Shown: positions 9,196 through 52,858 of the stretch, piece after piece
How positions within the stretch are numbered: position 1 is the stretch's first letter
How the letters are laid out: each line of letters opens with the position of its first letter
NCBI RefSeq assembly: GCF_020520425.1
Contig: NC_079490.1
Coordinates: 248,001-312,000, forward strand
Direction: 5' to 3'
Origin: Spinacia oleracea
Taxonomy: Eukaryota > Streptophyta > Magnoliopsida > Caryophyllales > Amaranthaceae
Length of the DNA: 64,000 nucleotides
Translations under genes and position numbers: made by a program
Notes under the pieces: generated by a model
The model's input: the letters and a program-made list of their open reading frames with translations, nothing else
What the model was told of the DNA's origin: nothing
Database searches by the model: none

Positions 9196-9304
9196 CATAT
9201 CATTATCACTTGCCTCAATTTTTCCTTTGCATTCATAGATCATGCCATTTCATTTGCCATGCTTATCTAAAGAGATGGTATTTTTAGGTGCTAGGTTCTT
9301 GTTG

Positions 9305-9523
9305 TTCTCCCTCTGTCCTAGACATGTTGTAAACGTTGAATTGACAAAGGCTTGTATTCTAAATTAAAATATATGTCCATACGGTGATACGGGTATAAAA
9401 TTCTCTTACGCGCACTGTAGGTAAAATGGTAGAGAAATTATACATTAAGTGATCAAACTTATATGTAAAAGATTTAGTTGATCTCAAATTAGAAACATCA
9501 TATACATAGGCCACAGAGAGTAT
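9305..9523. mobile_element. degenerate Stowaway-like MITE
   Basis: The left end reads CTCCCTCTGTCCTAGACAT and the right end, read inward on the minus strand, TACTCTCTGTGGCCTATG. Both resemble the CTCCCTCYGT ends of plant Stowaway (Tc1/mariner) MITEs. The size (about 220 bp) and AT-rich, non-coding interior also fit. It sits about 110 bp past the EF-P stop codon. The ends are diverged, so the family call is tentative. Confidence 0.5.
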
Positions 9524-10078: not shown

Positions 10079-11662
10079 GGGAAACGGGAAACGTTAGAGG
10101 TCTAGGCGCTTCCCACATACCCCATGGGTCCCAGAGGGTTTCATATTGGGTGCTTAGAAACATCTCCTAGACCTCCTAAATGACATTTAAAGGGACTTTT
10201 GAACAAACGCGCGTTGCGGAATAAATGGCATTCCGGGCCTTAAGGGAATAAGTTGGTTTTTTTTCCGACCAAACCTTGTTATTTGACCATATTAAACATT
10301 CCCCAAAATTTGAGGAGATCCAAAAAGAACCCACCAAGTGGGTCAAATTTGGTCAAAAAATGTGCATTAGATGGGGGATTTTGGCAAATTTTTACATTTT
10401 AGGAAACGGGAAACGTTAGAGGTGCGGGAACTTCCCACATACTCCATGGGTCCCTGACTCCCCGAGGGTCATATTGGGTGCTTAGAAGCATCTCCTAGGC
10501 CTCCTAAATGGCATTTAAAGGGACTTTTGAAAAAACGCGCGTTGCGGAATAAATGGCATTCCGGGGCCTTAAGGGATCAATAAGTTGGTTTTTTTTCCGA
10601 CTAAACCTTGTTATATGACCATATTAAACATTCCCCAAAATTTGAGGAGATCCAAAAAAAATCCACCAAATGGGTCAAATTTGGTCAAAAAGTGTGCATT
10701 AGGTGGGGGATTTTGGCAAATTTTTACATTTTAGGAAACGGGAAACGTTAGAGGTCCAGGCGCTTCCCAGTTCCCACATACCCCATGGGTCCCCGGGGGT
10801 CTTATTGGGTGCTTAGAAGCATCTCCTAGGCCTCCTAAATGGCATTTAAAGGGACTTTTGAAAAACCGCCGTTGCAGAATAAGTGGCATTTCGGGGCCTT
10901 AAAGGACCAATAAGTTGGTTTTTTTTTCGACCAAACCTTGTTATATGGCCATATTAAACATTCCCCAAAATTTGAGGAGATCCAAAAAAAATCCACCAAG
11001 TGGGTCAAATTTGGTCAAAAAGTGTGCACTATGTGGGGGATTTTGGCAAATTTTTACATTTTAGGAAACGGGAAACTTAGAGGTCCGGGCGCTTCCCACA
11101 TACCCCGGGGGTCATATCTGGTGCTTAGAAGCATCTCCTAGGCCTCCTAAACGGCATTTAAAGGGACTTTTGATAAAACGCGCGTTGCGGAATAAATGGC
11201 ATTCCGGGGCCTTAAGGGATCAATAAGTTGGTTTTTTTTCCGACTAAACCTTGTTATATGACCATATTAAACATTCCCCAAAATTTGAGGAGATCCAAAA
11301 AAAATCCACCAAATGGGTCAAATTTGGTCAAAAAGTGTGCATTAGGTGGGTGATTTTGGCAAATTTTTACATTTTAGGAAACGGGAAACGTTAGAGGTCC
11401 AGGCGCTTCCCAGTTCCCACATACCCCATGGGTCCCCGGGGGTCTTATTGGGTGCTTAGAAGCATCTCCTAGGCCTCCTAAATGGCATTTAAAGGGACTT
11501 TTGAAAAACCGTCGTTGCAATAAGTGGCATTTCGGGGCCTTAAAGGACCAATAAGTTGGTTTTTTTTTCGACCAAACCTTGTTATATGGCCATATTAAAC
11601 ATTCCCCAAAATTTGAGGAGATCCAAAAAAAATCCACCAAGTGGGTCAAATTTGGTCAAAAA
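10079..11662. repeat. satellite subfamily A, left edge of the array, with a two-monomer higher-order unit
   Basis: The first five monomers differ from the core. They have GGGAAACGTTAGAGG, AAGCATCTCCTAGGCC, GGGACTTTTGA, GGCATTCCGG (no EcoRI site) and GAGATCCAAA (no BglII site). The monomers at 10748 and 11391 are almost identical to each other (both contain CAGTTCCCACATACC and GTGGCATTTCGG) and alternate with the pair at 10416 and 11077, giving a dimeric repeat of about 645-660 bp. The switch to subfamily B happens inside one monomer near 11663, where GGTCAAAAAGTG passes into TATAGGTGGGCG. Confidence 0.85.
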
Positions 11663-12059
11663 GTGTGCATTATAGGTGGGCGATTTTGACTAATTTTTAC
11701 ATTTTAAGAAACTTGAAACGTTAGAGGTTCGGGCGCTTCCCACATACCCTTTGGGTCCCCAGGGGTCATATTGGGTGCTTAGTAGCATCTCCCCGGCCTC
11801 CTAAATGGCATTTAAAGGGAATTCGAAAAAACGCGCGTTGTGAAATAAATGGAATTCCGGGGCCTTAAGGGACCAATTAGTTGATTTTTTTCCGACCAAA
11901 CCTTATTATATGACCATATTATACATTCCCCAAAATTTGAGGAGATCTAAAAAAAACCCACAAAACGGGTCAAATTTGGTCGAAAAGTGTGCATTATAGG
12001 TGGGCGATTTTGGCTAATTTTTACATTTTAAGAAACTTGAAATGTTAGAGGTCCGGGCG

Positions 12060-15000
12060 CTTCCCACATACCCTTTGGGTCCCCAGGGGTCATATTGGGA
12101 TGCTTAGCAGCATCTCCCCAGCCTCCTAAATGGCATTTAAAGGGACTTCGAAAAAACGCGCGTTGTGAAATAAATGGAATTCCGGGACCTTAAGGGACCA
12201 ATTAGTTGGTTTTTTTTCCGACCAAACCTTATTATATGACCATATTATACATTCCCCAAAATTTGAGGAGATCTAAAAAAAAAATCACAAAACGGGTCAA
12301 ATTTGGTCGAAAAGTGTGCATTATAGGTGGGTGATTTTGGCTAATTTTTAAATTTTAAGAAACTTGAAACTTTAGAGGTCCGGGCACTTCCCACATACCC
12401 TATGGGTCCTAGGGGTCATATTGGGTGCTTAGCAACATTTCCCCGGCCTCCTAAATGGCATTTAAAGGGACTTCGAAAAAACGCGCGTCGTGAAATAAAT
12501 GGAATTCCGGGACCTTAAGGGTCCAATAAGTTGGTTTTTTTCCGACCAAACCTTATTATATGACCATATTATACATTCCCCAAAATTTGAGGAGATCTAA
12601 AAAAAAACCACAAAACGGGTCAAATTTGGTCGAAAAGTGTGCATTATAGGTGGGCGATTTTGGCTAATTTTTACATTTTAAGAAGCTTGAAATGTTAGAG
12701 GTCCGGGCGCTTCCCACATACCCTTTGGGTCCCCAGGGGTCATATTGGGTGCTTAGCAGCATCTCCCCAGCCTCCTAAATGGCATTTAAAGGGACTTCGA
12801 AAAAACGCGCGTTGTGAAATAAATGGAATTCCGGGACCTTAAGGGACCAATTAGTTGGTTTTTTTTTCCGACCAAACCTTATTATATGACCATATTATAC
12901 ATTCCCCAAAATTTGAGGAGATCTAAAAAAAACCACAAAACGGGTCAAATTTGGTCGAAAAGTGTGCATTATAGGTGGGTGATTTTGGCTAATTTTTAAA
13001 TTTTAAGAAACTTGAAACTTTAGAGGTCCGGGCACTTCCCACATACCCTATGGGTCCTAGGGGTCATATTGGGTGCTTAGCAACATTTCCCCGGCCTCCT
13101 AAATGGCATTTGAAGGGACTTCGAAAAAACGCGCGTTGTGAAATAAATGGAATTCCGGGACCTTAAGGGTCCAATAAGTTGGTTTTTTCCGACCAAACCT
13201 TTTTATATGACCATATTATACAATCCCCAAAATTTGAGGAGATCTAAAAAAAACCATAAAACGGGTCAAATTTGGTCGAAAAGTGTGCATTATAGGTGGG
13301 CGATTTTGGCTAATTTTTACATTTTAAGAAACTTGAATCGTTAGAGGTTCGGGCGCTTCCCACATACCCTTTGGGTCCCCAGGGGTCATATTGGGTGCTT
13401 AGCAGCATCTCCCCGGCCTCCTAAATGGCATTTAAAGGGACTTCGAAAAAACGCGCGTTGTGAAATAAATGGAATTCCGGGGCCTTAAGGGACGAATAAG
13501 TTGGTTTTTTCCCGACCAAACCTTATTATATGACCATATTATACATTATCCAAAATTTGAGAAGATCTAAAAAAAAACCACAAAACGGGTCAAATTTGGT
13601 CGAAAATGGTGCATTATAGGTGGGCGATTTTGGCTAATTTTTACATTTTAAGAAACTTGAAACGTTAGAGGTCCGGGCGCTTCCCACATACCCTTTGGGT
13701 CCCCAGGGGTCATATTGGGTGCTTAGCAACATCTCCCCGGCCTCCTAAATGGCATTTAAAGGGAATTCGAAAAAACGCGCGTTGTGAAATAAATGGAATT
13801 CCGGGGTCTTAAGGGACCAATTAGTTGGTTTTTTTCTGACCAAACCTTATTATATGACCATATTATACATTCTCCAAAATTCGAGGAGATCTAAAAAAAA
13901 CCACAAAACGGGTCAAATTTGGTCGAAAAGTGTGCATTATTGGTGGGTGATTTTGGCTAATTTTTAAATTTTAAGAAACTTAAAACGTTAGAGGTCCGGG
14001 CACTTCCCACATACCCTATGGGTCCCAGGGGTCATATTGGGTGCTTAGCAACATTTCCCCGGCCTCCTAAATGGCATTTAAAGGGACTTCGAAAAAACGC
14101 GCGTTGTGAAATAAATGGAATTCCGGGACCTTAAGGGTCCAATAAGTTGGTTTTTTCCCGACCAAACCTTTTTATATGACCATATTATACATTCCCCAAA
14201 ATTTGAGGAAATCTAAAAAAAACCCATAAAACGGGTCAAATTTGGTCGAAAAGTGTGCATTATAGGTGGGCGATTTTTGCTAATTTTTACATTTTAAGAA
14301 ACTTGAAACGTTAGAGGTTCGGGCGCTTCCCACATACCCTTTGGGTCCCCAAGGGTCATATTGGGTGCTTAGCAGCATCTCCCCGGGCTCCTAAATGGCA
14401 TTTAAAGGGACTTCGAAAAAACGCGCGTTGTGAAATAAATGGAATTCCGGGGCCTTAAGGGACCAATAAGTTGGTTTTTTCCCGACCAAACCTTATTATA
14501 TGACCATATTATACATTATCCAAAATTTGAGAAGATCTAAAAAAAAACCACAAAACGGGTCAAATTTGCTCGAAAAGTGTGCATTATAGGTGGGCGATTT
14601 TGGCTAATTTTTACATTTTAAGAAACTTGAAACGTTAGAGGTCCGGGCGCTTCCCACATACCCTTTGGGTCCCCAGGGGTCATATTGGGTGCTTAGCAGC
14701 ATCTCCCCGGCCTCCTAAATGTCATTTAAAGGGACTTCGAAAAAACGCGCGTTGTGAAATAAATGGAATTCCGGGGCCTTAAGGGACCAATTAGTTGGTT
14801 TTTTTCTGACCAAACCTTATTATATGACCATATTATACATTCTCCAAAATTTGAGGAGATCTAAAAAAAAACCACAAAACGGGTCAAATTTGGTCGAAAA
14901 GTGTGCATAGGTGGGCGATTTTTGCTAATTTTTACATTTTAAGAAACTTGAAACGTTAGAGGTTCGGGCGCTTCCCACATACCCTTTGGGTCCCCAGGGG

Positions 15001-17362
15001 TCATATTGGGTGCTTAGCAGCATCTCCCCAGCCTCCTAAATGGCATTTAAAGGGACTTCGAAAAAACGCGCGTTGTGAAATAAATGGAATTCCGGGACCT
15101 TAAGGGACCAGTTAGTTGGTTTTTTTTCCGACCAAACCTTATTATATGACCATATTATACATTTCCCAAAATTTGAGGAGATCTAAAAAAAACCCACAAA
15201 ACGGGTCAAATTTGGTCGAAAAGTGTGCATTATAGGTGGGCGATTTTGGCTAATTTTTACATTTTAAGAAACTTGAAATGTTAGAGGTCCGGGCGCTTCC
15301 CACATACCCTTTCGGTCCCCAGGGGTCATATTGGGTGCTTAGCAGCATCTCCCCAGCCTCCTAAATGGCATTTAAAGGGACTTCGAAAAAACGCGCGTTG
15401 TGAAATAAATGGAATTCCGGGACTTTAAGGGACCAATTAGTTGGTTTTTTTTCCGACCAAACCTTATTATATGACCATATTATACATTCCCCAAAATTTG
15501 AGGAGATCTAAAAAAAACCACAAAACGGGTCAAATTTGGTCGAAAAGTGTGCATTATAGGTGGGTGATTTTGGCTAATTTTTAAATTTTAAGAAACTTGA
15601 AACTTTAGAGGTCCGGGCACTTCCCACATACCCTATGGGTCCTAGGGGTCATATTGGGTGCTTAACAACATTTCCCCGGCCTCCTAAATGGCATTTAAAG
15701 GGACTTCGAAAAAACGCGCGTTGTGAAATAAATGGAATTCCGGGGCCTTAAGGACCAATAAGTTTATTTTTTCCCGACCAAACCTTATTATATGACCATA
15801 TTATACATTCCCCAAAATTTTATGAGATCTAAAAAAAAAAATCACAAAACGGGTCAAATTTGGTCGAAAAGTGTTCATTATAGGTGGGCGATTTTGGCTA
15901 ATTTTTAAGTTTTAAGAAACTTGAAACGTTAGAGGTTCGGGCGCTTCCCTCATACCCTTTGGGTCCCCAGGGGTCATATTGGGTGCTTAGCAGCATCTCC
16001 CCAGCCTCCTAAATGTCATTTAAATGGACTTCGGAAAAACGCGCGTTGTGAAATAAATGGAATTCCGGGGCATTAAGGGACCAATTAGTTGGTTTTTTTC
16101 TGACCAAACCTTATTATATGACCATATTATACATTCTCCAAAATTTGAGGAGATCTAAAAAAAAACCACAAAACGGGTCAAATTTGGTCGAAAAGTGTGC
16201 ATTATAGGTGGGTGATTTTGGCTAAATTTTAAATTTTAAGAAACTTGAAACGTTAGAGGTCCGGGCACTTCCCACATACCCTTTGGGTCCCCAGGGGTCA
16301 TATTGGGATGCTTAGCAGCATCTCCCCAGCCTCCTAAATGGCATTTAAAGGGACTTCGAAAAAACGCGCGTTGTGAAATAAATGGAATTCCGGGACCTTA
16401 AGGGACCAATTAGTTGGTTTTTTTTCCGACCAAACCTTATTATATGACCATATTATACATTCCCCAAAATTTGAGGAGATCTAAAAAAAAAATCACAAAA
16501 CGGGTCAAATTTGGTCGAAAAGTGTGCATTATAGGTGGGTGATTTTGGCTAATTTTTAAATTTTAAGAAACTTGAAACTTTAGAGGTCCGGGCACTTCCC
16601 ACATACCCTATGGTTCCTAGGGGTCATATTGGGTGCTTAGCAACATTTCCCCGGCCTCCTAAATGGCATTTAAAGGGACTTCGAAAAAACGCGCGTCGTG
16701 AAATAAATGGAATTCCGGGACCTTAAGGGTCCAATAAGTTGGTTTTTTTCCGACCAAACCTTATTATATGACCATATTATACATTCCCCAAAATTTGAGG
16801 AGATCTAAAAAAAAACCACAAAACGGGTCAAATTTGGTCAAAAAGTTGCATTATAGGTGGGCGATTTTGGCTAATTTTTACATTTTAAGAAACTTGAAAT
16901 GTTAGAGGTCCGGGCGCTTCCCACATACCCTTTCGGTCCCCAGGGGTCATATTGGGTGCTTAGCAACATCTCCCCAGCCTCCTAAATGGCATTTAAAGGG
17001 ACTTCGAAAAAACGCGCGTTGTGAAATAAATGGAATTCCGGGACTTTAAGGGACCAATTAGTTGGTTTTTTTTTCCGACCAAACCTTATTATATGACCAT
17101 ATTATACATTCCCCAAAATTTGAGGAGATCTAAAAAAAACCACAAAACGGGTCAAATTTGGTCGAAAAGTGTGCATTATAGGTGGGTGATTTTGGCTAAT
17201 TTTTAAATTTTAAGAAACTTGAAACTTTAGAGGTCCGGGCACTTCCCACATACCCTATGGGTCCTAGGGGTCATATTGGGTGCTTAGCAACATTTCCCCG
17301 GCCTCCTAAATGGCATTTAAAGGGACTTCGAAAAAACGCGCGTTGTGAAATAAATGGAATTC
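12060..17362. repeat. 13-monomer duplication within the satellite
   Basis: Monomers starting 12045, 12372, 12695 and 13020 match those at 16253, 16580, 16902 and 17227. Offsets are 4207-4208 bp. Both copies share the rare TTGGGATGCTTAG insertion (12091 and 16299) and the order of the ACTTTAGAGG variants. Matching tracts are about 12060-13155 and 16268-17362. Confidence 0.75.
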
Positions 17363-19845: not shown

Positions 19846-20899
19846 GTCCCCAGGGTCATATTGGGTGCTTAGCAGGATCTCCCCGGCCTCCTAAATGGCA
19901 TTTAAAGGGACTTCGAAAAAAAGCGCGTTGTGAATTAAATGGAATTCCGGGGCCTTAAGGGACCAATAAGTTGGTTTTTTCCCGACCAAACCTTATTATA
20001 TGACCATATTATACATTATCCAAAATTTGAGAAGATTTAAAAAAAAACCACAAAACGGGTCAAAGTTGGTCGAAAAGTGTGCATTATAGGTGAGCGATTT
20101 TGGTTAATTTTTATATTTTAAGAAACTTGAAACGTTAGAGGTCCGGGCGCTTCCCACATTTCCTTTCGGTCCCCAGGGGTCATATTGGGTGCTTAGCAGC
20201 ATCTCCCCGGCCTCCTAAATGGCATTTAAAGGGACTTCGAAACAACGCGCGTTGTGGAATAAATGGAATTCCGGGGCCTTAAGGGACCAATTAGTTGTTT
20301 TTTTCCCGACCAAGCTTTATTATATGATCATATTAAACATTCCCCAAAATTTCATGAGATCTAAAAAAAAAACCACAAAACGGGTCAAATTTGGTCGAAA
20401 AGTGTGCATTAGGTGGACGATTTTGGCTAATTTTTATATTTTAAGAAACTTGAAATGTTAGAGGTCCGGGCGCTTCCTACATACCCTTTGGGTCCCCAGG
20501 GGTCATATTGGGTGTTTAGCAGCATCTCCCCGGCCTCCTAAATGGCATTTAAAGGGACTTCGAAAAAACGCGCGTTGTAGAATAAATGGAATTCCGGGGC
20601 CTTAAGGGACCAATAAGTTGGTTTTTTCCCGACCAAACCTTATTATATGACCATATTATACATTCCCCAAAATTTTATGAGATCTAAAAAAAAAAAATCA
20701 CAAAACAGGTCAAATTTGGTCGAAAAGTGTGCATTATAGGTGCGCGATTTTGGCTAATTTTTGAATTTTAAGAAACTCGAAACGTTAGAGGTTCAGGCGC
20801 TTCCCACATACCCTTTGGGTCCCCAGGGGTCATATTGGGTGCTTAGCCGCATCTCCCCAGCCTCCTAAATGGCATTTAAAGGGACTTCGAAACAACGCG

Positions 20900-23800
20900 C
20901 GTTGTGAAATAAATGGAATTCCGGGGCCTTAAGGGACCAATTAGCTGGTTTTTTTCTGACCAAACCTTATTATATGACCATATTATACATTCTCTAAAAT
21001 TTGAGAAGATCTAAAAAAAAACCACAAAACGGGTCAAATTTGGTCGAAAAGTGTGCATTATAGGTGGGTGATTTTGGCTAATTTTTAAATTTTAAGAAAC
21101 TTGAAACGTTAGAGGTCCGGATGCTTCCCACATACCCTTTGGGTCCCCAGGGGTCATATTGGGTGCTTAGCAGCATCTCCCCGGCCTCCTAAATGGCATT
21201 TAAAGGGACTTCGAAAAAACGCGCGTTGTGAAATAAATGGAATTCCGGGGCCTTAAGGGACCAATAGGTTGATTTTTTTTTTCCTACCAAACCTTATTAT
21301 ATGACCATATTAAATATTCCCCAAAATTTGAGGAGATCTAAAAAAAACCACAAAACGGGTCAAATTTGGTCGAATAGTGTGCATTATAGGTGGGCGATTT
21401 TGGCTAATTTTAAAATTTTAAGAAACTTGAAACGTTAGAGGTCCGGGTACTTCCCACATACCCTATGGGTCCCAGGGGTCATATTGGGTGCTTAGCAGCA
21501 TCTCCCCGGCCTCCTAAATGGCATTTAAAGGGACTTCGAAAAAACGCGCGTTGTGAAATAAATGGAATTCCGGGACATAAAGGGTCCAATTAGTTGGTTT
21601 TTTCCCGACCAAACCTTTTTATATGACCATATTATACATTCCCCAAAATTTGAGGAGATCTAAAAAAAAACCATAAAACGGGTCAAATTTGGTCGAAAAG
21701 TGTGCATTATAGGTGGGCGATTTTGGCTAATTTTTACATTTTAAGAAACTTGAAACGTTAGATGTCCTGGAACTTCCCACATACCCTATGGGTCCCCAGG
21801 GGTCATATTGGGTGCTTAGCAGCATCTCCCCGGCCTCCTAAATGGCATTTAAAGGGACTTCGAAAAAACGCGCGTTGTGAAATAAATGGAATTCCGGGAC
21901 CTTAAGGGTCCAATTAGTTGGTTTTTTCCCGACTAAACCTTTTTATATGACCATATTATAATTCCCCAAAATTTGAGGAGATCTAATAAAAAATCATAAA
22001 ACGGGTCAAATTTGGTCGAAAAATGTGCATTATAGGTGGGCGATTTTGGCTAATTTTTACATTTTAAGAAACTTGAAACGTTAGATGTCCTGGAACTTCC
22101 CACATACCCTATGGGTCCCCAGGGGTCATATTGGGTGCTTAGCAGCATCTCCCCGGCCTCCTATATGGCATTTAAAGGGACTTCGAAAAAACGCGCGTTG
22201 TGAAATAGATGGAATTCCGGGGCCTTAAGGGACCAATAGGTTGGTTTTTTTTTCCTACCAAACCTTATTATATGACCATATTAAATATTCCCCAAAATTT
22301 GAGGAGATCTAAAAAAAACCACAAAACGGGTAAAATTTGGTCGAAAAATGTGCATTATAGGTGGGTGATTTTGGCTAATTTTTAAATTTTAAGAAACTTA
22401 AAACGTTAGAGGTCCGGGCACTTCCCACATACCCTATGGGTCCCAGGGGTCATATTGGGTGCTTAGCAACATTTCCCCGGCCTCCTAAATGGCATTAAAA
22501 GGGACTTCGAAAAAACGCGCGTTGTGAAATAAATGGAATTCCGGGACCTTAAGGGTCCAATAAGTTGGTTTTTTCCTGACCAAACTTTTTTATATGACCA
22601 TATTATACATTCCCCAAAATTTGAGGAGATCTAAAAAAAACCCATAAAACGGGTCAAATTTGGTCAAATAGGTGGGCGATTTTGGCTAATTTTTACATTT
22701 TAAGAAACTTGAAACGTTAGAGGTTCGGGCGCTTCCCACATACCCTTTGGGTCCCCAGGGGTCATATTGGGTGCTTAACAGCATCTCCCCGGCCTCCTAA
22801 ATGGCATTTAAAGGGATTTCGAAAAAACGCGCGTTGTGAAATAAACGGAATTCCGGGGCCTTAAGGGACCAATAAGTTGGTTTTTTCCCGACCAAACCTT
22901 TTTATATGACCATATTATACATTCCCCAAAATTTGAGGAGATCTAAAAAAAACCCGTAAAACGGGTCAAATTTGGTCGAAAAGTGTGCATTATAGGTGGG
23001 CGATTTTGGCTAATTTTTACATTTTAAGAAACTTGAAACGTTAGAGGTCCGGGCGCTTCCCACATACCCTTTGGGATCCCAGGGGTCATATTGGGTGCTT
23101 AGCAACATCTCCCCGGCCTCCTAAATGGCATTTAAAGGGATTTCGAAAAAACGCGCGTTGTGAAATAAATGGAATTCCGGGGCCTTAAGGGACCAATTAG
23201 TTGGTTTTTTTCTGACCAAACCTTATTATATGACCATATTATACATTCTCCAAAATTCGAGGAGATCTAAAAAAAACCCACAAAACGGGTCAAATTTGGT
23301 CGAAAAGTGTGCATTATATAGGTGGGTGATTTTGGCTAATTTTTAAATTTTAAGAAACTTAAAACGTTAGAGGGCCGGGCACTTTCCACATACCCTATGG
23401 GTCCCAGGGGTCATATTGGGTGCTTAGCAACATTTCCCCGGCCTCCTAAATGGCATTTAAAGGGACTTCGAAAAAACGCGCGTTGTGAAATAAATGGAAT
23501 TCCGGGACCTTAAGGGTCCAATAAGTTGGTTTTTTCCCGACCAAACTTTTTTATATGACCATATTATACATTCCCCAAAATTTGAGGAGATCTAAAAAAA
23601 ACCCATAAAACGGGTCAAATTTGGTCGAAAAGTGTGCATTATAGGTGGGCGATTTTGGCTAATTTTTACATTTTAAGAAACTTGAAACAATAGAGGTTTG
23701 GGCGCTTCCCACATACCCTTTGGGTCCCCAGGGGTCATATTGGGTGCTTAGCAGCATCTCCCCGGCCTCCTAAATGGCATTTAAAGGGATTTCGAAAAAA

Positions 23801-26800
23801 ACGCGCGTTGTGAAATAAACGGAATTCCGGGGCCTTAAGGGACCAATAAGTTGGTTTTTTCCCGACCAAACCTTATTATATGACCATATTATACATTATC
23901 CAAAATTTGAGAAGATCTAAAAAAAACCACAAAACGGGTCAAATTTGGTCGAAAAGTGTGCATTATAGGTGGCCGATTTTGGCTAATTTTTACATTTTAA
24001 GAAACTTGAAACGTTAGAGGTCCGGGCGCTTCCCACATACCCTTTGGGTCCCCAGGGGTCATATTGGGTGCTTAGCAGCATCTCCCCGGCCTCCTAAATG
24101 TCATTTAAAGGGACTTCGAAAAAACGCGCGTTGTGAAATAAATGGAATTCCGGGGCCTTAAGGGACCAATAATTTGGTTTTTTTCTGACCAAACCTTATT
24201 ATATGACCATATTATACATTCTCCAAAATTTTAGGAGATCTAAAAAAAAACCACAAAACGGGTCAAATTTAGTCGAAAAGTGTGCATTATAGGTGGGCGA
24301 TTTTGGCTAATTTTTAAATTTTAAGAAACTTGAAACGTTAGATGTTCGGGAACTTCCCACATACCCTATGGGTCCCCAGGGGTCATATTGGGTGCTTAGC
24401 AGCATCTCCCCGGCCTCCTAAATGGCATTTAAAGGGACTTCGAAAAAACGTGCGTTGTAGAATAAATGACATTCTGGGGCCTTAAGGTACCATTAAGTTG
24501 GTTTTTTCCCGACCAAGCTTTATTATATGACCATATTAAACATTCCCCAAAATTTGATGAGATCCAAAAAAAATCCACAAAGTCGGTCAAATTTGGTCAA
24601 AAAGTGTGCATGGTGGGCGATTTTGGCTAATTTTTAAATTTTAAGAAACTTGAAACGTTAGAGGTTCGGGCGCTTCCCACATACCCTTTGGGTCCCCAGG
24701 GGTCATATTAGGTGCTTAGCAGCATCTCCCCAGCCTCCTAAATGGCATTTAAATGGACTTCGGAAAAACGCGCGTTGTGAAATAAATGGAATTCCGGGGC
24801 CTTAAGGGACCAATTAGCTGGTTTTTTTCTGACCAAACCTTATTATATGACCATATTATACATTCTCTAAAATTTGAGAAGATCTAAAAAAAAACCACAA
24901 AACGGGTCAAATTTGGTCGAAAAGTGTGCATTATAGGTGGGTGATTTTGGCTAATTTTTAAATTTTAAGAAACTTGAAACGTTAGAGGTCCGGATGCTTC
25001 CCACATACCCTTTGGGTCCCCAGGGGTCATATTGGGTGCTTAGCAGCATCTCCCCGGCCTCCTAAATGGCATTTAAAGGGACTTCGAAAAAACGCGCGTT
25101 GTGAAATAGATGGAATTCCGGGGCCTTAAGGGACCAATAGGTTGATTTTTTTTTTCCTACCAAACCTTATTATATGACCATATTAAATATTCCCCAAAAT
25201 TTGAGGAGATCTAAAAAAAACCACAAAACGGGTCAAATTTGGTCGAATAGTGTGCATTATAGGTGGGCGATTTTGGCTAATTTTAAAATTTTAAGAAACT
25301 TGAAACGTTAGAGGTCCGGGTACTTCCCACATACCCTATGGGTCCCAGGGGTCATATTGGGTGCTTAGCAGCATCTCCCCGGCCTCCTAAATGGCATTTA
25401 AAGGGACTTCGAAAAAACGCGCGTTGTGAAATAAATGGAATTCCGGGACATAAAGGGTCCAATTAGTTGGTTTTTTCCCGACCAAACCTTTTTATATGAC
25501 CATATTATACATTCCCCAAAATTTGAGGAGATCTAAAAAAAAACCATAAAACGGGTCAAATTTGGTCGAAAAGTGTGCATTATAGGTGGGCGATTTTGGC
25601 TAATTTTTACATTTTAAGAAACTTGAAACGTTAGATGTCCTGGAACTTCCCACATACCCTATGGGTCCCCAGGGGTCATATTGGGTGCTTAGCAGCATCT
25701 CCCCGGCCTCCTAAATGGCATTTAAAGGGACTTCGAAAAAACGCGCGTTGTGAAATAAATGGAATTCCGGGACCTTAAGGGTCCAATTAGTTGGTTTTTT
25801 CCCGACTAAACCTTTTTATATGACCATATTATACATTCCCCAAAATTTGAGGAGATCTAATAAAAAATCATAAAACGGGTCAAATTTGGTCGAAAAATGT
25901 GCATTATAGGTGGGCGATTTTGGCTAATTTTTACATTTTAAGAAACTTGAAACGTTAGATGTCCTGGAACTTCCCACATACCCTATGGGTCCCCAGGGGT
26001 CATATTGGGTGCTTAGCAGCATCTCCCCGGCCTCCTATATGGCATTTAAAGGGACTTCGAAAAAACGCGCGTTGTGAAATAGATGGAATTCCGGGGCCTT
26101 AAGGGACCAATAGGTTGGTTTTTTTTTCCTACCAAACCTTATTATATGACCATATTAAATATTCCCCAAAATTTGAGGAGATCTAAAAAAAACCACAAAA
26201 CGGGTCAAATTTGGTCGAAAAATGTGCATTATAGGTGGGTGATTTTGGCTAATTTTTAAATTTTAAGAAACTTAAAACGTTAGAGGTCCGGGCACTTCCC
26301 ACATACCCTATGGGTCCCAGGGGTCATATTGGGTGCTTAGCAACATTTCCCCGGCCTCCTAAATGGCATTAAAAGGGACTTCGAAAAAACGCGCGTTGTG
26401 AAATAAATGGAATTCCGGGACCTTAAGGGTCCAATAAGTTGGTTTTTTCCTGACCAAACTTTTTTATATGACCATATTATACAATCCCCAAAATTTGAGG
26501 AGATCTAAAAAAAACCCATAAAACGGGTCAAATTTGGTCAAATAGGTGGGCGATTTTGGCTAATTTTTACATTTTAAGAAACTTGAAACGTTAGAGGTTC
26601 GGGCGCTTCCCACATACCCTTTGGGTCCCCAGGGGTCATATTGGGTGCTTAACAGCATCTCCCCGGCCTCCTAAATGGCATTTAAAGGGATTTCGAAAAA
26701 ACGCGCGTTGTGAAATAAACGGAATTCCGGGGCCTTAAGGGACCAATAAGTTGGTTTTTTCCCGACCAAACCTTTTTATATGACCATATTATACATTCCC

Positions 26801-33300: not shown

Positions 33301-33870
33301 ATAAAACGGGTCAAATTTGGTCGAAAAGTGTGCATTATAGGTGGGTGATTTTGGCTAATTTTTACATTTTAAGAAACTTGAAACGTTAGAGGTTCGGGCG
33401 CTTCCCACATACCCTTTGGGTCCCAGGGGTCATATTGGGTGCTTAGCAACATTTCCCCGGCCTCCTAAATGGCATTTAAAGGGACTTCGAAAAAACGCGC
33501 GTTGTGAAATAAATGGAATTCCGGGACCTTAAGGGTCCAATAAGTTGGTTTTTTCCAGACCAAACTTTTTTATATGACCATATTATACATTCCCCAAAAT
33601 TTGAGGAGATCTAAAAAAAATCCACAAAGTCGGTCAAATTTGGTCAAAAAGTGTGCATTATAGGTGGGCGATTTTGGCTAATTTTTAAATTTTAAGAAAC
33701 TTGAAACGTTAGAGATTCGGGCGCTTCCAACATACCCTTTGGGTCCCCAGGGTCATATTGGGTTCTTAGCAGCATCTCCCCAGCCTCCTAAATGGCATTT
33801 AAATGGACTTCGGAAAAACGCGCGTTGTGAAATAAATGGAATTCCGGGGCCTTAAGGGACCAATTAGTTG
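30380..33870. repeat. 10-monomer-spaced copy of a rare variant
   Basis: The monomer at 30476 and the one at 33709, 3233 bp apart, share the rare combination AGAGATTCGGGCGCTTCC, AACATACCC and TTGGGTTCTTAGCAGC. The matched tract is short (about 250 bp), which suits gene conversion or an old, mostly overwritten duplication. Confidence 0.6.
31121..32740. repeat. 3-monomer duplication within the satellite
   Basis: The monomers at 31121 and 31444 match those at 32093 and 32415 at offsets of 971-972 bp. They share the one-base-shortened GGCCTCCAAATGGC and the CCCCGGCGTCCTAAATGG variant. Confidence 0.65.
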
Positions 33871-41000: not shown

Positions 41001-42189
41001 ATGACCATATTATACATTATCAAAAATTTGAGAAGATCTAAAAAAAAACCACAAAACGGGTCAAATTTGGTCGAAAAGTGTGCATTATAGGTGGGTGATT
41101 TTGGCTAATTTTTACATTTTAAGAAACTTGAAACGTTAGAGGTCCGGGCGCTTCCCACATACCCTTTGGGTCCCCAGGGGTCATATTGGGTGCTTAGCAG
41201 CATCTCACCGGCCTCCTAAATGTCATTTAAAGGGACTTCGAAAAAACGCGCGTTGTGAAATAAATGGAATTCCGGGGCCTTAAGGGACCAATTAGTTGGT
41301 TTTTTTCTGACCAAACCTTATTATATGACCATATTATACATTCTCCAAAATTTGAGGAGATCTAAAAAAAAACCACAAAACGGGTCAAATTTGGTCGAAA
41401 AGTGTGCATTATAGGTGGGCGATTTTGGCTAATTTTTACATTTTAAGAAACTTGAAACGTTAGAGGTTCGGGCGCTTCCCACATACCCTTTGGGTCCCCA
41501 GGGGTCATATTGGGTGCTTAGCAGCATCTCCCCGGCCTCCTAAATGGCATTTAAAGGGACTTCGAAAAAACGCGCGTTGTGAAATAAATGGAATTCCGGG
41601 GCCTTAAGGGACCAATTAGTTGGTTTTTTTCTGACAAACCTTATTATATGACCATATTATACATTCTCCAAAATTTGAGGAGATCTAAAAAAAAACCACA
41701 AAACGGGTCAAATTTGGTCGAAAAGTGTGCATTATAGGTGGGTGATTTTGGCTAATTTTTAAATTTTAAGAAACTTGAAACGTTAGAGATCCGGGCACTT
41801 CCCACATTCCCTATGGGTCTCAGGGGTCATATTGGGTGCTTAGCAACATTTCCCCGGCCTCCTAAATGGCAATTAAAGGGACTTCGAAAAAACACGCGTT
41901 GTGAAATAAATGGAATTCCGGGACCTTAAGGGTCCAATAAGTTGGTTTTTTCCCGACCAAACCTTATTATATGACCATATTATACATTCCCCAAAATTTG
42001 AGGAGATCTAAAAAAAAACCATAAAACGGGTCAAATTTGGTCGAAAAGTGTGCATTATAGGTGGGCGATTTTGGCTAATTTTTGCATTTTAAGAAACTTG
42101 AAACGTTAGAGGTTCGGGCGCTTCCCTCATACCCTTTGGGTCCCCAGGGGTCATATTGGGTGCTTAGCAGCATCTCCCCGGCCTCATAA

Positions 42190-45100: not shown

Positions 45101-47340
45101 CTAAATGGCATTTAAAGGGACTTCGAAAAAACGCGCGTTGTGAAATAAATGGAATTCCGGGGCCTTAAGGGACCAATAAGTTGGTTTTTTCCCGACCAAA
45201 CCTTATTATATGACCATATTATACATTATCCAAAATTTGAGAAGATCTAAAAAAAAACCACAAAACGGGTCAAATTTGGTCGAAAAGTGTGCATTATAGG
45301 TGGGCGATTTTGGCTAATTTTTATATTTTAAGAAACTTGAAATGTTAGAGGTCCGGGCGCTTCCTACATACCCTTTGGGTCCCCAGGGGTCATATTGGGT
45401 GCTTAGCAGCATCTCCCCGGCCTCCTAAATGGCATTTAAAGGGACTTCGAAAAAACGCGCGTTGTGAAATAAATGGAATTCCGGGGCCTTAAGGGACCAA
45501 TAAGTTGGTTTTTTCCCGACCAAACCTTATTATATGACCATATTATACATTATCCAAAATTTGAGAAGATCTAAAAAAAAACCATAAAACGGGTCAAATT
45601 TGGTCGAAAAGTGTGCATTATAGGTGGGCGATTTTGGCTAATTTTTACATTTTAAGAAACTTGAAACGTTAGAGGTTCGGGCGCTTCCCACATACCCTTT
45701 GGGTCCCCAGGGGTCATATTGGGTGCTTAGCAGCATCTCCCCGGCCTCCTAAATGGCATTTAAAGGGACTTCGAAAAAACGCGCGTTGTGAAATAAATGG
45801 AATTCCGGGGCCTTAAGGGACCAATAAGTTGGTTTTTTCCCGACCAAACCTTATTATATGACCATATTATACATTATCCAAAATTTGAGAAGATCTAAAA
45901 AAAAACCATAAAACGGGTCAAATTTGGTCGAAAAGTGTGCATTATAGGTGGGCGATTTTGGCTAATTTTTACATTTTAAGAAATTTGAAACGTTAGAGGT
46001 TCGGGCGCTTCCCACATACCCTTTGGGTCCCCAGGGGTCATATTGGGTGCTTAGCAGCATCTCCCCGGCCTCCTAAATGGCATTTAAAGGGACTTCGAAA
46101 AAACGCGCGTTGTGAAATAAATGGAATTCCGGGGCCTTAAGGGACCAATAAGTTGGTTTTTTCCCGACCAAACCTTATTATATGACCATATTATACATTA
46201 TCCAAAATTTGAGAAGATCTAAAAAAAAACCACAAAACGGGTCAAATTTGGTCGAAAAGTGTGCATTATAGGTGGGCGATTTTGGCTAATTTTTACATTT
46301 TAAGAAACTTGAAACGTTATAGGTCCGGGCGCTTCCCACATACCCTTTGGGTCCCCAGGGGTCATATTGGGTGCTTAGCAGCATCTCCCCGGCCTCCTAA
46401 ATGTCATTTAAAGGGACTTCGAAAAAACGCGCGTTGTGAAATAAATGGAATTCCGGGGCCTTAAGGGACCAATAAGTTGGTTTTTTCCCGACCAAACCTT
46501 ATTATATGACCATATTATACATTATCCAAAATTTGAGAAGATCTAAAAAAAAACCACAAAACGGGTCAAAGTTGGTCGAAAAGTGTGCATTATAGGTGAG
46601 CGATTTTGGCTAATTTTTATATTTTAAGAAACTTGAAACGTTAGAGGTCCGGGCGCTTCCCACATACCCTTTCAGTCCCCAGGGGTCATATTGGGTGCTT
46701 AGCAGCATCTCCCCGGCCTCCTAAATGGCATTTAAAGGGACTTCGAAAAAACGCGTGTTGTAGATTAAATGACATTCTGGGGCCTTAAGGGGCCAATTAG
46801 TTGTTTTTTTCCCGACCAAGCTTTATTATATGATCATATTAAACATTCCCCAAAATTTCATGAGATCTAAAAAAAAAACCACAAAACGGGTCAAATTTGG
46901 TCGAAAAGTGTGCATTATAGGTGGACGATTTTGGCTAATTTTTACATTTTAAGAAACTTGAAATGTTAGAGGTCCGGGCGCTTCCTACATACCCTTTGGG
47001 TCCCCAGGGGTCATATTGGGTGCTTAGCAGCATCTCCCCGGCCTCCTAAATGGCATTTAAAGGGACTTCGAAAAAACGCGCGTTGTAGAATAAATGGAAT
47101 TCCGGGGCCTTAAGGGACCAATAAGTTGGTTTTTTCCCGACCAAACCTTATTATATAACCATATTATACATTCCCCAAAATTTTATGAGATCTAAAAAAA
47201 AAAAATCACAAAACGGGTCAAATTTGGTCGAAAAGTGTGCATTATAGGTGGGCGATTTTGGCTAATTTTTAAATTTTAAGAAACTCGAAACGTTAGAGGT
47301 TCAGGCGCTTCCCACATACCCTATGGGTCCCCAGAGATCA
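42190..47340. repeat. 13-monomer duplication in the right part of the array
   Basis: Monomers at 42430, 42757 and 43084 match 46641, 46966 and 47293 at 4209-4211 bp. Shared rare states are GTCAAAGTTGGTCG, CGCGTGTTGTAGATTAAATG, AAGGGGCCAATTAG, GCGCTTCCTACATACCC and AACTCGAAACGTTAGAGG. Confidence 0.7.
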
Positions 47341-49130
47341 TATTGGGTGCTTAGCAGCATCTCCCCGGCCTCCTAAATGGCATTTAAAGGGACTTCGAAA
47401 AAACGCGCGTTGTGAAATAAATGGAATTCCGGGGCCTTAAGGGACCAATTAGTTGGTTTTTTTCTGACCAAACCTTATTATATGACCATATTATACATTC
47501 TCCAAAATTCGAGAAGATCTAAAAAAAACCACAAAACGGGTCAAATTTGGTCGAAAAGTGTGTATTATAGGTGGGTGATTTTGGCTAATTTTTAAATTTT
47601 AAGAAACTTAAAACGTTAGAGGTCCGGGCACTTCCCACATACCCTATGGGTCCCAGGGGTCATATTGGGTGCTTAGCAACATTTCCCCGACCTCCTAAAT
47701 GGCATTTAAAGGGACTTCGAAAAAACGCGTGTTGTAGAATAAATGACATTCTGGGGCCTTAAGGTACCATTAAGTTGATTTTTTTCCCCACCAAGCTTTA
47801 TTATATGATTATATTAAACATTATCCAAAATTTGAGAAGATCTAAAAAAAAACCACAAAACGGGTCAAATTTGGTCGAAAAGGGTGCATTATAGGTGGGC
47901 GATTTTGGCTAATTTTTACATTTTAAGAAACTTGAAACGTTAGAGGTCCGGGCGCTTCCCACATACCCTTTGGGTCCCCAGGGGTCATATTGGGTGCTTA
48001 GCAGCATCTCCCCGGCCTCCTAAATGGCATTTAAAGGGACTTCGAAAAAACGCGCGTTGTGAAATAAATGGAATTCCGGGGCCTTAAGGGACCAATTAGT
48101 TGGTTTTTTTCTGACCAAACCTTATTATATTACCATATTATACATTCTCCAAAATTCGAAAAGTTCTAAAAAAAACCACAAAACGGGTCAAATTTGGTCG
48201 AAAAGTGTGCATTATAATTGGGTGATTTTGGCTAATTTTTAAATTTTAAGAAACTTAAAACGTTAGAGGTCCGGGCACTTCCCACATACCCTATGGGTCC
48301 CAGGGGTCATATTGGGTGCTTAGCAACATTTCCCCGACCTCCTAAATGGCATTTAAAGGGACTTCGAAAAAACGCGCGTTGTGAAATAAATGGAATTCCG
48401 GGACCTTAAGGGTCCAATAAGTTGGTTTTTTCCCGACCAAACCTTTTTATATGACCATATTATACATTCCCAAAAATTTGAGGAGATCTAAAAAAAACCA
48501 TAAAACGGGTCAAATTTGGTCGAAAAGTGTGCATTATAGATGGGCGATTTTGGCTAATTTTTACATTTTAAGAAACTTGAAACGTTAGAGGTTCGGGCGC
48601 TTCCCACATACCCTTTGGGTCCACAGGGGTCATATTGGGTGCTTAGCAGCATCTCCCCGGCCTCCTAAATGGCATTTAAAGGGACTTCGAAAAAACGCGC
48701 GTTGTGAAATAAATGGAATTCCGGGGCCTTAAGGGACCAATAAGTTGGTTTTTTCCCGACCAAACCTTATTATATGACCATATTATACATTATCCAAAAT
48801 TTGAGAAGATCTAAAAAAAAACCACAAAACGGGTCAAATTTGGTCGAAAAGTGTGCATTATAGGTGGGCGATTTTGGCTAATTTTTACATTTTAAGAAAC
48901 TTGAAACGTTATAGGTCCGGGCGCTTCCCACATACCCTTTGGGTCCCCAGGGGTCATATTGGGTGCTTAGCAGCATCTCCCCGGCCTCCTAAATGTCATT
49001 TAAAGGGACTTCGAAAAAACGCGCGTTGTGAAATAAATGGAATTCCGGGGCCTTAAGGGACCAATAAGTTGGTTTTTTCCCGACCAAACCTTATTATATG
49101 ACCATATTATACATTATCCAAAATTTTAGA
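46100..49130. repeat. 8-monomer duplication with an identical 204-bp core
   Basis: The stretches 46261-46464 and 48853-49056 encode the same 67-codon open frame without a difference, 2592 bp apart, and share the rare GAAACGTTATAGGTCC state. The frame is a by-product of the repeat, not a gene. The flanking few hundred bases also agree. Confidence 0.75.
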
Positions 49131-49740
49131 AGATCTAAAAAAAAAACCACAAAACGGGTCAAATTTGGTCGAAAAGTGTTCATTATAGGTGAGCGATTTT
49201 GGTTAATTTTTAAATTTTAAGAAACTCGAAACGTTAGAGGTTCAGGCGCTTCCCACATACCCTATGGGTCCCCAGGGGTCATATTGGGTGCTTAGCAGCA
49301 TCTCCCCGGCCTCCTAAATGGCATTTAAAGGGACTTAGAAAAAACGCGCGTTGTGAAATAAATGGAATTCCGGGGCCTTAAGGGACCAATTAGTTGGTTT
49401 TTTTCTGACCAAACCTTATTATATGACCATATTATACATTCTCCAAAATTCGAGAAGATCTAAAAAAACCCACAAAACGGGTCAAATTTGGTCGAAAAGT
49501 GTGTATTATAGGTGGGTGATTTTGGCTAATTTTTAAATTTTAAGAAACTTAAAACGTTAGAGGTCCGGGCACTTCCCACATACCCTATGGGTCCCAGGGG
49601 TCATATTGGGTGCTTAGCAACATTTCCCCGACCTCCTAAATGGCATTTAAAGGGACTTCGAAAAAACGCGTGTTGTAGAATAAATGACATTCTGGGGCCT
49701 TAAGGTACCATTAAGTTGATTTTTTTCCCCACCAAGCTTT
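47230..49740. repeat. 6-monomer duplication near the right edge
   Basis: Monomers at 47293 and 47616 match 49234 and 49557 at 1941 bp. Both pairs run AACTCGAAACGTTAGAGG, then the CTTAAAACG form, then a mosaic monomer with GTTGTAGAATAAATGACATT and TTTTTCCCCACCAAGC. Confidence 0.65.
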
Positions 49741-49779
49741 ATTATATGATCATATTAAACATTCCCAAAATTTGATGAG

Positions 49780-51660
49780 ATCCAAAAAAAATCCACAAAG
49801 TCGGCCAAATTTGGTCAAAAAGTGTGCATAAGGTGGCCGATTTTGCTAATTTTTACATTTTAGGAAATGGGAAATGTTAGGGGTCCGGGCGCTTCCCACA
49901 TACTTCATGGGTTCTCGGAGGGTCATATTGGGTGCGTAGAAGCATCTCCTCGGCCTCCTAAATGGAATTTAAAGGGATTTTTGAAAAAACACGTGTTGCA
50001 GAATATATTGAATTCCGAGGCCTTAAGGGACCAATAAGTTGGTTTTTTCCCGACCAAACCTTATTATATGACCATATTAAACATTCCCCAAAATTTTAGG
50101 AGATCTAAAAAAAAACCACAAAACGATCAAATTTGGTCGAAAAGTGTGCATTATACGATTTTGGCTAATTTTTAAATTTTAAGAAACTTGATACGTTAGA
50201 TGTACGGGAACTTCCCACATACCCTATGGGTCCCCAGGGGTCATATTGGGTGCTTAGCAGCATCTCCCCGGCCTCCTAAATGGTATTTAAAGGGACTTCG
50301 AAAAAACGCGCGTTGTGAAATAAATGGAATTCCGGGGCCTTAAGGGACCAATAAGTTGGTTTTTTCCCGACCAAACCTTATTATATGACCATATTATACA
50401 TTCCCCAAAATTTGAGGAGATCTAAAAAAAAAACCACAAAACGGGTCAAATTTGGTCGAAAAGTGTGCATTATAGGTGGGCGATTTTGGCTAATTTTTAC
50501 ATTTTAAGAAACTTGAAACGTTAGAGGTCCGGGCGCTTCCCACATACCCTTTGGGTCCCCAGGGGTCATATTGGGTGCTTAGCAGCATCTCCCCAGCCTC
50601 CTAAATGGCATTTAAAAGGACTTCGAAAAAACGCGCGTTATGAAATAAATGGAATTCCGGGACCTTAAGGGACCAATTAGTTGGTTTTTTTCCGACCAAA
50701 CCTTATTAAATGACCAAATTATACATTCCCCAAAATTTGAGGAGATCTAAAAAAAAACCACAAAACGGGTCAAATTTGGTCGAAAAGTGTGCATTATAGG
50801 TGGGTGATTTTGGCTAATTTTTAAATTTTAAGAAACTTGAAACGTTAGAGGTCCGGGCACTTCCCACATACCCTATGGGTCCTAGGGGTCATATTGGGTG
50901 CTTAGCAACATTTCCCCGGCCTCCTAAATGGCATTTAAAGGGACTTCGAAAAAACGCGCGTTGTGAAATAAATGGAATTCCGGGGCCTTAAGAGACCAAT
51001 AAGTTTATTTTTTCCCGACCAAACCTTATTATATGACCATATTATACATTCCCCAAAATTTTATGAGATCTAAAAAAAAAAACCCACAAAACGGGTCAAA
51101 TTTGGTCGAAAAGTGTGCATTATAGGTGGGCGATTTTGGCTAATTTTTACATTTTAAGAAACTTGAAACGTTAGAGGTCCGGGCGCTTCCCACATACCCT
51201 TTCGGTCCCCAAGGGTCATATTGGGTGCTTAGCAGCATCTCCCCGGCCTCCTAAATGGCATTTAAAGGGACTTCTAAAAAACGCGCGTTGTAGAATAAAT
51301 GACATTCTGGGGCCTTAAGGTACCATTAAGTTGGTTTTTTCCCGACCAAGCTTTATTATATGATCATATTAAACATTCCCCAAAATTTGATGAGATCCAA
51401 AAAAAATCCACAAAGTCGGTCAAATTTGGTCAAAAAGTGTGCATAAGGCGGGCGATTTTGCTAATTTTTACATTTTAGGAAATGGGAAATGTTAGGGGTC
51501 CGGGCGCTTCCCACATACTTCATGGGCTCGGGGGGTCATATTGGGTGCTTAGAAGCATCTCCTCGGCCTCCTAAATGGAATTTAAAGGGATTTTTGAAAA
51601 AACACGTGTTGCATAATATATGGAATTCCGGGGCCTTAAGGGACCAATAAGTTGGTTTTT
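49780..51660. repeat. A/B mosaic monomers near the right edge, duplicated at 5-monomer spacing
   Basis: The tracts near 49780-50040 and 51395-51660 match at about 1615 bp. They share GAAATGTTAGGGGTCC, CATACTTCATGGG, AAACACGTGTTGC and AATGGAATTTAAAGGG. They combine A-type features (AAGCATCTCCTCGG, GATCCAAAAA) with B-type ones, so they look like intermediates or recombinants between the subfamilies. Confidence 0.6.
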
Positions 51661-51756
51661 TCCCGACCAAACCTTATTATATGAATATATTAAACATTCC
51701 CAAAAATTTGAGGAGATCTAAAAAAAACCCACAAAACGGGTCAAATTTGGTCGAAA

Positions 51757-52858
51757 AGTGTGCACTATGTGGGGGATTTTGGCAAATTTTTACATTTTAG
51801 GAAACGGGAAACTTAGAGGTCCGGGCGCTTCCCACATACCCCGGGGGTCATATCTGGTGCTTAGAAGCATCTCCTAGGCCTCCTAAACGGCATTTAAAGG
51901 GACTTTTGATAAAACGCGCGTTGCGGATTAAATGACATTCTAGGGCCTTAAGGGACCAATAAGTTGGTTTTTTTTCATACCAAACCTTGTTATATGACCA
52001 TATTAAACATTCCCCAAAATTTGAGGAGATCCAAAAAAAAATCCACCAAATGGGTCAAATTTGGTCAAAAAGTGTGCATTAGGTGGGGGATTTTGGCAAA
52101 TTTTTACATTTTAGGAAACGCGAAACGTTAGAGGTCCAGGCGCTTCCTAGTTCCCACATACCCCATGGGTCCTCGGGGGTCTTATTGGGTGCTTAGAAGC
52201 ATCTCCTAGGCCTCCTAAATGGCATTTAAAGGGACTTTTGAAAAAACGAGCGTTGCAGAATAAATGGCATTTCGGGGCCTTAAGGGACCAATAAGTGGGT
52301 TTTTTTCCGACCAAACTTTTTTATATGACCATATTAAACATTCCCCAAATTTGAGGAGATCCAAAACAAATCTACCAAGTAGGTCAAATTTGGTCAAAAA
52401 GTGCATTAGGTAGGGGATTTTGGCAAATTTTTACATTTTAGGAAACGGGAAACTTAGAGGTCCGGGCCCTTCCCAAATACCCCATGGGTCCCCGTGGGTC
52501 ATATCTGGTACTTAGAAGCATCTACTAGGCCTCCTAAATGGCATTTAAAGGGAATTTTGAAAAAACGGGCGTTGCGGATTAAATGGCATTCCGGGACCTT
52601 AAGGGACCAATAAGTTGGTTTTTTTTTCCGACCAAACCTTGTTATATGACCACATTAAGCATTCCCCAAAATTTGAGGAGATCCAAAAAAAAAATTCACC
52701 AAAGTGTGTCAAATTTGGTCAAAAAGTGTGCATTAGGTGGGAGATTTTGGCAAATTTTTACATTTTATGAAACGGGAAACGTTAGAGGTCCGGGCGCTTC
52801 CCACATACCACATGGGTCCCCGGGGGTCTTATTGGGTGCTTAAAAGCTTCTTCTTGGC
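51757..52858. repeat. satellite subfamily A, right edge of the array
   Basis: From 51757 the monomers return to the A form seen at the left edge. Bases 51757-51926 are identical to 11021-11190 (170 bp), including the odd CCCCGGGGGTCATATCTGG and CTAAACGGCATTT. The monomer at 52128 is of the same type as those at 10748 and 11391, and the one at 52454 resembles 51813, so the A dimer is present here too. The last copy breaks off near 52858 after GCTTAAAAGC. Confidence 0.85.

Follow-up and report, generated by a model that had tools for sequence, protein, structure and literature searches.

A 64,000-bp stretch of the spinach (Spinacia oleracea) genome, hereafter called the window, carries a 42.8-kb array of a 324-bp satellite that very probably lies, to judge from the predicted gene structure, within the last intron of a gene for elongation factor P (EF-P). 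The best overall explanation, which we consider likely, is that the array forms the bulk of this intron, grew within the gene and was then copied together with the 3′ end of the gene. The window corresponds to positions 248001-312000 of contig C4, and all window positions are counted from its first base. The genome searched comprises 894,210,420 bases in 242 contigs, among which C1-C6 measure 115-189 Mb and C7 measures 0.6 Mb.

The original prediction described a pure 43-kb island of 133 copies at positions 10079-52858, and both Tandem Repeats Finder (TRF) and an anchor scan reproduce these coordinates to within a few bases. TRF places the array at 10081-52842, with a period of 324, 132.2 copies, 92% matches and a score of 71210, and the anchor scan yields 133 unit starts spaced 311-332 bp apart. 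Because this spacing holds throughout, there is no room for an inserted element. When the array is cut into units, 132 are full and 91 nt are left over; the consensus is 324 nt long and the aligned units match it with a mean identity of 94.7%, a figure that includes the 91-nt remainder, whose short length brings its score down to 0.24. A diagnostic 34-mer, with at most two mismatches, occurs 88 times on the plus strand of the window and 0 times on the minus strand, and the longest stop-free stretch in the tripled consensus is 47 codons. The claim that the array contains no inverted copy, insert or gene is thus confirmed.

The placement of this array relative to the EF-P gene is as follows.

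6138-6329, 6473-6568, 6644-6713, 7217-7283, 7400-7467, 8214-8337, 8889-8928 and 9124-9191, plus strand: EF-P exons 1-8, with an open frame and GT-AG introns.
9192-53155, plus strand: proposed last intron of EF-P, 43,964 bp, about 97% satellite, with donor AAG/GTGACA and acceptor GCTTATCCTCTGCAG/G (the slash marks the junction).
10080-52858, plus strand: 324-bp satellite array, 132 full units and one partial, with a right edge uncertain by a few bases.
53156-53165, plus strand: coding part of EF-P exon 9, which would complete an Arg codon and add Ala-Lys-stop.
53289-53294, plus strand: AATAAA, a candidate poly(A) signal of EF-P from a motif scan.

The EF-P frame is intact through exon 8, where it ends in ..DDSYLT plus AG. 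Its product exceeds the cut-offs of the Pfam families EFP_N, EFP and Elong-fact-P_C and of NCBIfam NF001810, and falls just under that of TIGR00038 (184.8 of 185.8 bits). The gene is a nuclear one for an EF-P of bacterial type, whose product is probably organellar, given that 62 residues precede the EF-P domain. To score splice sites, we used a weight matrix built from the 18 other introns of the window, with the real sites left out in turn. The acceptor at 53155 reaches 9.66 bits, which beats 15 of the 18 real acceptors in the window, and it ranks second among 1834 AG sites in 9250-53800 and first among the 116 that lie outside the array. It alone, among the ten outside-array acceptors listed, gives Ala-Lys-stop, which by sequence comparison is a usual end of EF-P and favours this acceptor. 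For example, alphaproteobacterial proteins end in ..NSYVERAKD (Rhizobium) and ..TYVRRAD (Sphingomonas), and the last position of the NF001810 model, 187, aligns to residue 244, the Lys. Similarly, 9 of the 10 plasmid EF-P matches listed (67 records matched in all) extend to residue 244, and the alignments of 12 matched EF-P-type structures end at residue 244 in five cases, 243 in five and 242 in two. Within the flanks examined (9192-10080 and 52858-53822), AATAAA occurs only at 53289.

From these features we strongly infer a predicted splice from 9191 to 53156, and the gene model supports a satellite array that most likely sits between the donor and the acceptor of one gene. The original prediction had the EF-P gene ending 0.9 kb to the left of the array, which no longer holds if, as seems most likely, its last coding exon is the one at 53156-53165. 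The description of an island between ordinary genes survives insofar as a pure, single-orientation array does stand beside such genes, but the word ‘between’ is unlikely to apply to an array that most likely occupies the last EF-P intron.

A second locus preserves the flanks without the satellite. On the minus strand of C6:104852000-104860000, homologues of window positions 9970-10076 and 52863-53322 are present with 162 bp between them, along with parts of the 3′ region of DTC, the gene convergent with EF-P, and there is no satellite match. This copy differs from the EF-P locus by a Kimura two-parameter (K2P) distance of 0.16-0.20, and the left flank (9192-10080) matches only itself and the C6 locus. 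Because the C6 copy holds both flanks only 162 bp apart, the two flanks must once have been contiguous. No convincing similarity was found between this 162-bp stretch and the array as its possible source. A pattern search of the contigs for EF-P gave 51 matches, 0 of them confirmed. We also sought a retrocopy of the EF-P mRNA in the genome and found none; the search turned up fragments of exon 9 instead.

The units of the array fall into two types, arranged as follows.

10080-11706, plus strand: left edge, five A-type units (m1-m5) recognized by diagnostic columns, with a clean b/a/b alternation in m3-m5 and a mixed state in m1 and m2.
11707-51799, plus strand: core, units m6-m129, B-type with a few A/B hybrids, the clearest being m123-124 and m128-129.
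51800-52858, plus strand: right edge, A-type units m130-m132 and partial unit m133, recognized by diagnostic columns.
52848-52859, plus strand: terminal-monomer variant TTCTTCTTGGCC, from a motif search of the window array and of 15 array stretches in a second block described below.

At 21 columns the edge units (m1-m5 and m130-m132) hold one state and the core another. Core units m6-m122 have a mean pairwise identity of 93.6%, and units at opposite edges resemble each other (m4 and m130 at 96.8%, m3 and m131 at 93.1%) while edges and core match at 84%. A further 13 columns split the edge units into a- and b-types: m3, m5 and m131 are b and m4 and m130 a in every column, m132 agrees with a in 12 of the 13, and m1, m2 and partial unit m133 are mixed. 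When the core is omitted, the series m3 b, m4 a, m5 b, m130 a, m131 b, m132 a alternates without a break. The switch from A-type to core-type falls within the last part of m5, and on the right side the hybrids m123-124 and m128-129 recur at a lag of five. No edge state at all is carried by 85 of the 117 core units, and four or more by only 6 of the 117.

One recent duplication is evident, in which units m35-45 equal m47-57, an 11-unit run at a lag of 12 with at least 98.5% identity throughout; the longest comparable run in 200 shuffles was 3 units. This run and the pattern of edge and core are signs of the unequal exchange expected within an older, smaller array, as read from the units themselves. 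Several other accounts of the array were considered. A higher-order repeat through the core was rejected since, among lags 1-59, only 12 exceeds a z of 4 (z 8.4), owing to the one duplicated block. Decay of the edges by drift alone is disfavoured by the states that the left and right edges have in common, and a centromeric satellite was rejected for this locus, given that the contig, 189 Mb long, begins 0.25 Mb away. For a transposon-derived array, the analysis covered the flanks through scans for repeats.

The satellite also occurs in a second, inverted block on C4 (block 2). Genome-wide, the core 34-mer with at most two mismatches matches 88 times on the plus strand and 146 times on the minus strand (control, 0). 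The window holds exactly 88, or about 38% (88/234) of all matches. The 101 of the 146 minus-strand matches whose places were given lie inverted at C4:434-526 kb, and 45 are unplaced. Allowing one mismatch gives 102 and 59 matches, 59 being the window's own number, and the 100 of the 102 that were listed all fall at C4:433,774-526,289. Block 2 is interrupted: the satellite extends as far as 528.5 kb, but fetched intervals at 504-509, 510-511 and 535-536 kb lack it. Two BLAST searches, which scored best candidates only, found copies that keep at least 83% identity across the whole unit on C4 alone, that is, in the window and block 2; the original prediction had called for such a search of the whole assembly. 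The best candidates elsewhere are diverged relatives (66-89% identity, mostly partial), many of them near chromosome ends and some interior.

Block 2 carries pieces of the gene as well as of the array.

C4:461583-462437 and C4:432380-433234, inverted: copies of window 53141-53974, beside block-2 arrays.

The copied stretch comprises exon 9, the 3′ untranslated region (UTR), the spacer, and the last exon and part of the last intron of DTC. The two fragments are identical to each other over 855 bp and differ from the EF-P locus by 4.2% outside a replaced 38-bp stretch, or by 7.0% (K2P) when that stretch is included. At a substitution rate near 7e-9 per site and year, a divergence of 4.2% corresponds to about 3 My, which is a rough guide. 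An array ends some 20-30 bp from each fragment, and its last unit carries TTCTTCTTGGCC. The window array has this variant once, at the end facing exon 9, and in the 15 block-2 stretches searched it was seen only at the two ends on the exon-9 side. Furthermore, 283 bp of intron between the array and exon 9 are present at the EF-P locus and on C6 and missing from block 2, and about 18 bp before exon 9 are common to block 2 and C6 and have no counterpart at EF-P. These two patterns, together with the terminal motif, indicate that block 2 acquired the array end jointly with the 3′ end of the gene, with an earlier state of the locus as the source. Neither exon 8 nor the left flank yielded fragments in block 2 in the searches made.

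No consensus difference separates 117 core units from 75 block-2 units. Nevertheless, the nearest relative lies in the same block for 105 of the 117 core units, versus a mean of 76.8 and a maximum of 90 in shuffles, and for 65 of the 75 block-2 units. When 117 block-2 units were typed, 28 had six or more edge states, and these are paired along the block and at the exon-9 ends.

Several observations weigh against an intronic array. The donor is weak (1.11 bits), beating only 4 of the 18 real donors, and one AG within the array outscores the acceptor at 53155. Unspliced EF-P RNA would read AGG and then TGA (9193-9195), a stop that overlaps the donor, to give ..YLTR-stop, and an acceptor at 9807 yields the same protein. 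Some bacterial EF-Ps do end near this Arg, as 2 of the 12 structures align only to it. The other EF-P gene (C5:28.23 Mb) runs straight to ..QYSSRS-stop and lends no support to a final intron. Weaker poly(A) variants exist to the left of the array (ATTAAA at 9363; AAGAAA at 9716, 9904 and 9908), as does another to its right at 53685. The C6 copy demonstrates that the flanks were contiguous, not that they are an intron, and it could itself have lost an array. The weak donor, the overlapping TGA and the C5 paralogue fit another arrangement, in which EF-P stops at 9193-9195 and the array is an ordinary subterminal block between convergent genes. However, this arrangement requires that a high-ranking acceptor, a usual EF-P C-terminus that it produces and an AATAAA 133 bp farther on all be due to chance, and it leaves the region left of the array (9192-10080) with no AATAAA. 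We therefore regard an intergenic array as improbable.

Two other possibilities concern how the intronic array arose and whether it is real. Block 2 (C4:434-528 kb) might be the source, with the core delivered to the intron by gene conversion or insertion and the exon-9 fragments acquired separately. This is compatible with an intronic location, and would explain why core and block 2 have one consensus with no fixed difference and why A-type units persist at both edges of the intron array. We consider it doubtful though less so than an intergenic array, because the exon-9-side arrays of block 2 end in the same terminal-monomer variant, such that at least that end came from the gene, and because most core units are closest to another unit of the intron array. 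A mis-assembly of a long-read draft that made or moved the array, or altered its length, would be consistent with the 92% match to the TRF consensus, the near-identical 11-unit run and the identity of the two gene fragments in block 2. Also counting against our interpretation is that 42.8 kb exceeds the 20-kb library of the presumed assembly, such that the copy number may be wrong. Yet the edge units are diverged and specific, little or nothing else in the genome matches the left flank or most of the right flank, the C6 copy shows that the flanks belong together, and fluorescence in situ hybridization (FISH) in the available text of PMC7840529 places SpSat04-324, a satellite discussed next, in the matching region. 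An artefact is thus very improbable. The preferred explanation remains an array that grew in the last EF-P intron.

The family was not recognized in the original prediction. Unit length and map position fit a named satellite, and the array is probably SpSat04-324 (MN918727). In the part of PMC7840529 available to us, SpSat04-324, SpSat01-21 (with its sequence printed) and SpSat03-179 are Spinacia satellites, and SpSat04-324 was placed by FISH in a region matching the window locus. The array has a tandem unit of the same length (TRF period 324), and all 189 placed 34-mer matches are at C4:0.258-0.526 Mb (45 unplaced), near one end of a sex chromosome. As expected for SpSat04-324, SpSat01-21 is found on the same chromosome end, at the C4 start: C4:1-10000 consists of a 21-bp unit, CTAGTTGGCGGGTGCCGATAG, which resembles the unit at 20001-25000 and is, by eye, a rotation of the reverse complement of printed SpSat01-21. 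Chromosome 4 is called a sex chromosome, with its sex-associated region at 92-103 Mb, in the accessible portion of PMC8668906. The locus is subterminal, 0.25 Mb from the start of the 189-Mb contig. A named satellite and a subtelomeric place, which the original prediction had itself put forward as grounds for abandoning its view, are largely what was found, as far as the available text of PMC7840529 goes.

Related repeats occur at several places. C4 begins in at least 10 kb of the 21-bp GC-rich satellite rather than in telomere repeats, and C4:30.0-31.0 kb holds 158-bp repeats and degenerate telomere-like repeats (at about 30.7 kb). Arrays of about 179 bp at C6:452-5382, C3:42000-42900, C3:74000-74900 and C2:114709000-114710000 share positions 2-160 of the 324-bp unit. 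These are probably SpSat03-179, and the two named spinach satellites, probably SpSat03-179 and SpSat04-324, would seem to have a module in common. At C3:768000-789650, parts of the 324-bp unit, some in each orientation, are embedded in tandem repeats whose periods are about 700 and 1275 bp. The block-2 array is broken at C4:453.86-457.14 kb and C4:494.06-497.35 kb by about 3.3 kb of sequence containing TTTGCGTCGC-type repeats; as these are corresponding places in two block-2 units, the insertion probably predates their duplication. Three places close to satellite arrays or relatives, C4:504000-509000, C6:5738-7996 and C6:2803886-2806143, hold similar GC-rich repeats of 18, 45 and 21 bp, perhaps from one transposon family.

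The remaining features of the window are in the flanks.

53820-55577, minus strand: DTC, a mitochondrial carrier gene with six coding exons, convergent with EF-P, and an open frame of 297 aa.

Pfam Mito_carr matches a hand-joined, 293-aa version of DTC, whose introns hold minisatellites of 50 bp (54788-54889) and 42 bp (54952-55170). Between DTC and its neighbour, which from our reading of its sequence we take to be tubulin-like, degenerate GC-rich repeats (GGGGCGGG and ACCCGCCCC) flank a 51-bp direct repeat at 57215-57830. An inverted repeat at 3350-3484, with 55-bp arms that are 95% complementary and 25 bp apart, resembles a small non-autonomous DNA transposon.

We propose that a small A-type array of a Spinacia subterminal repeat would first have settled in an ordinary EF-P intron, where it would have replaced about 162 bp. 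A B-type variant might then have expanded in the middle of the array via unequal exchange, and the array end, exon 9, the 3′ UTR and the end of DTC would later have been copied, inverted, to a site about 130 kb away. The array itself would be a passenger, tolerated by virtue of its position. The intron interrupts the third-last codon, so a transcript that was not spliced or that ended early would still encode ..YLT-Arg-stop, at a cost of only Ala-Lys. We give roughly even chances to the fuller proposal that a satellite visible by cytology and specific to the genus was born as a tandem array in the intron of a housekeeping gene, that all of the close copies found in the assembly lie in this intron or in the exon-9-bearing block and that growth was permitted by this late codon split.

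If full-length mRNA is made, the polymerase must traverse 43 kb with 119 sense AATAAA motifs, which by motif count occur at about 2.8 per kb versus 0.9 per kb elsewhere in the window. Read-through of a heterochromatic intron might, by analogy, depend on a system like that of IBM2, EDM2 and AIPP1, which in Arabidopsis promote the full-length transcript of IBM1, a gene with a heterochromatic repeat in an intron, according to the available text of PMC11265718. Cryptic acceptors are weaker in the core, where units have TTTTAAG (median 0.16 bits), than in A-type units, which have TTTTAG (5.71 bits). This weakening would help correct splicing, and may be chance. The observed/expected ratio of CpG is 0.89 in the array core, 0.64 in the left A-type units and, in the intron flanks that adjoin the array, 0.41 and 0.39; to the left and right of the array it is 0.44 and 0.49. 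C-to-T changes occur at 7.6% of CpG sites versus 5.0% at other C. The core is thus not CpG-depleted, which neither proves nor excludes heterochromatin.

There are precedents for parts of this arrangement. As described in the accessible part of PMC6508621, satellite DNA makes up most of an intron in the protein-coding Drosophila genes kl-3 and kl-5, as is proposed for EF-P. Those are Y-linked spermatogenesis genes with megabases of simple repeats and a dedicated expression programme, whereas here 43 kb of a 324-bp unit would occupy a housekeeping gene near the end of a plant chromosome; the short period, Y linkage and megabase scale are all lacking, as the array is 42.8 kb and the 92-103 Mb sex-associated region is far away. 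IBM1 has intronic repeats that transcription must cross, as EF-P would in our model. However, according to the same portion of PMC11265718, these are simple and transposon repeats with a demonstrated dependence on IBM2 and EDM2, in contrast to the 43-kb satellite proposed for the EF-P intron; proximal poly(A) signals within the intron, as in IBM1, are present by motif count only. Satellite-like TCAST elements of Tribolium lie inside introns (29 of 68), although their satellite-type arrays are tetramers at most in the available text of PMC3411249, compared with the 132 units here. In the open-licence library searched, none of the papers listed on satellites in introns concerns a plant by its title, and no text examined reports the EF-P intron array. 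SpSat04-324 serves as a FISH marker in PMC7840529, in whose available text the word ‘intron’ is absent, whereas the array would be intronic in our model.

If our explanation is true, a satellite used as a marker of the spinach sex-chromosome karyotype would be largely the intron of a housekeeping gene plus a block derived with that intron. The birth of a satellite, whose origins are usually lost, would here be traceable through an array-free copy, edge units, an expanded core and an inverted daughter block. The locus would also provide a natural test of two things: plant transcription and splicing across 43 kb of satellite in which AATAAA occurs more than a hundred times, and the possibility that a gene's ability to harbour a satellite depends on where the intron lies.

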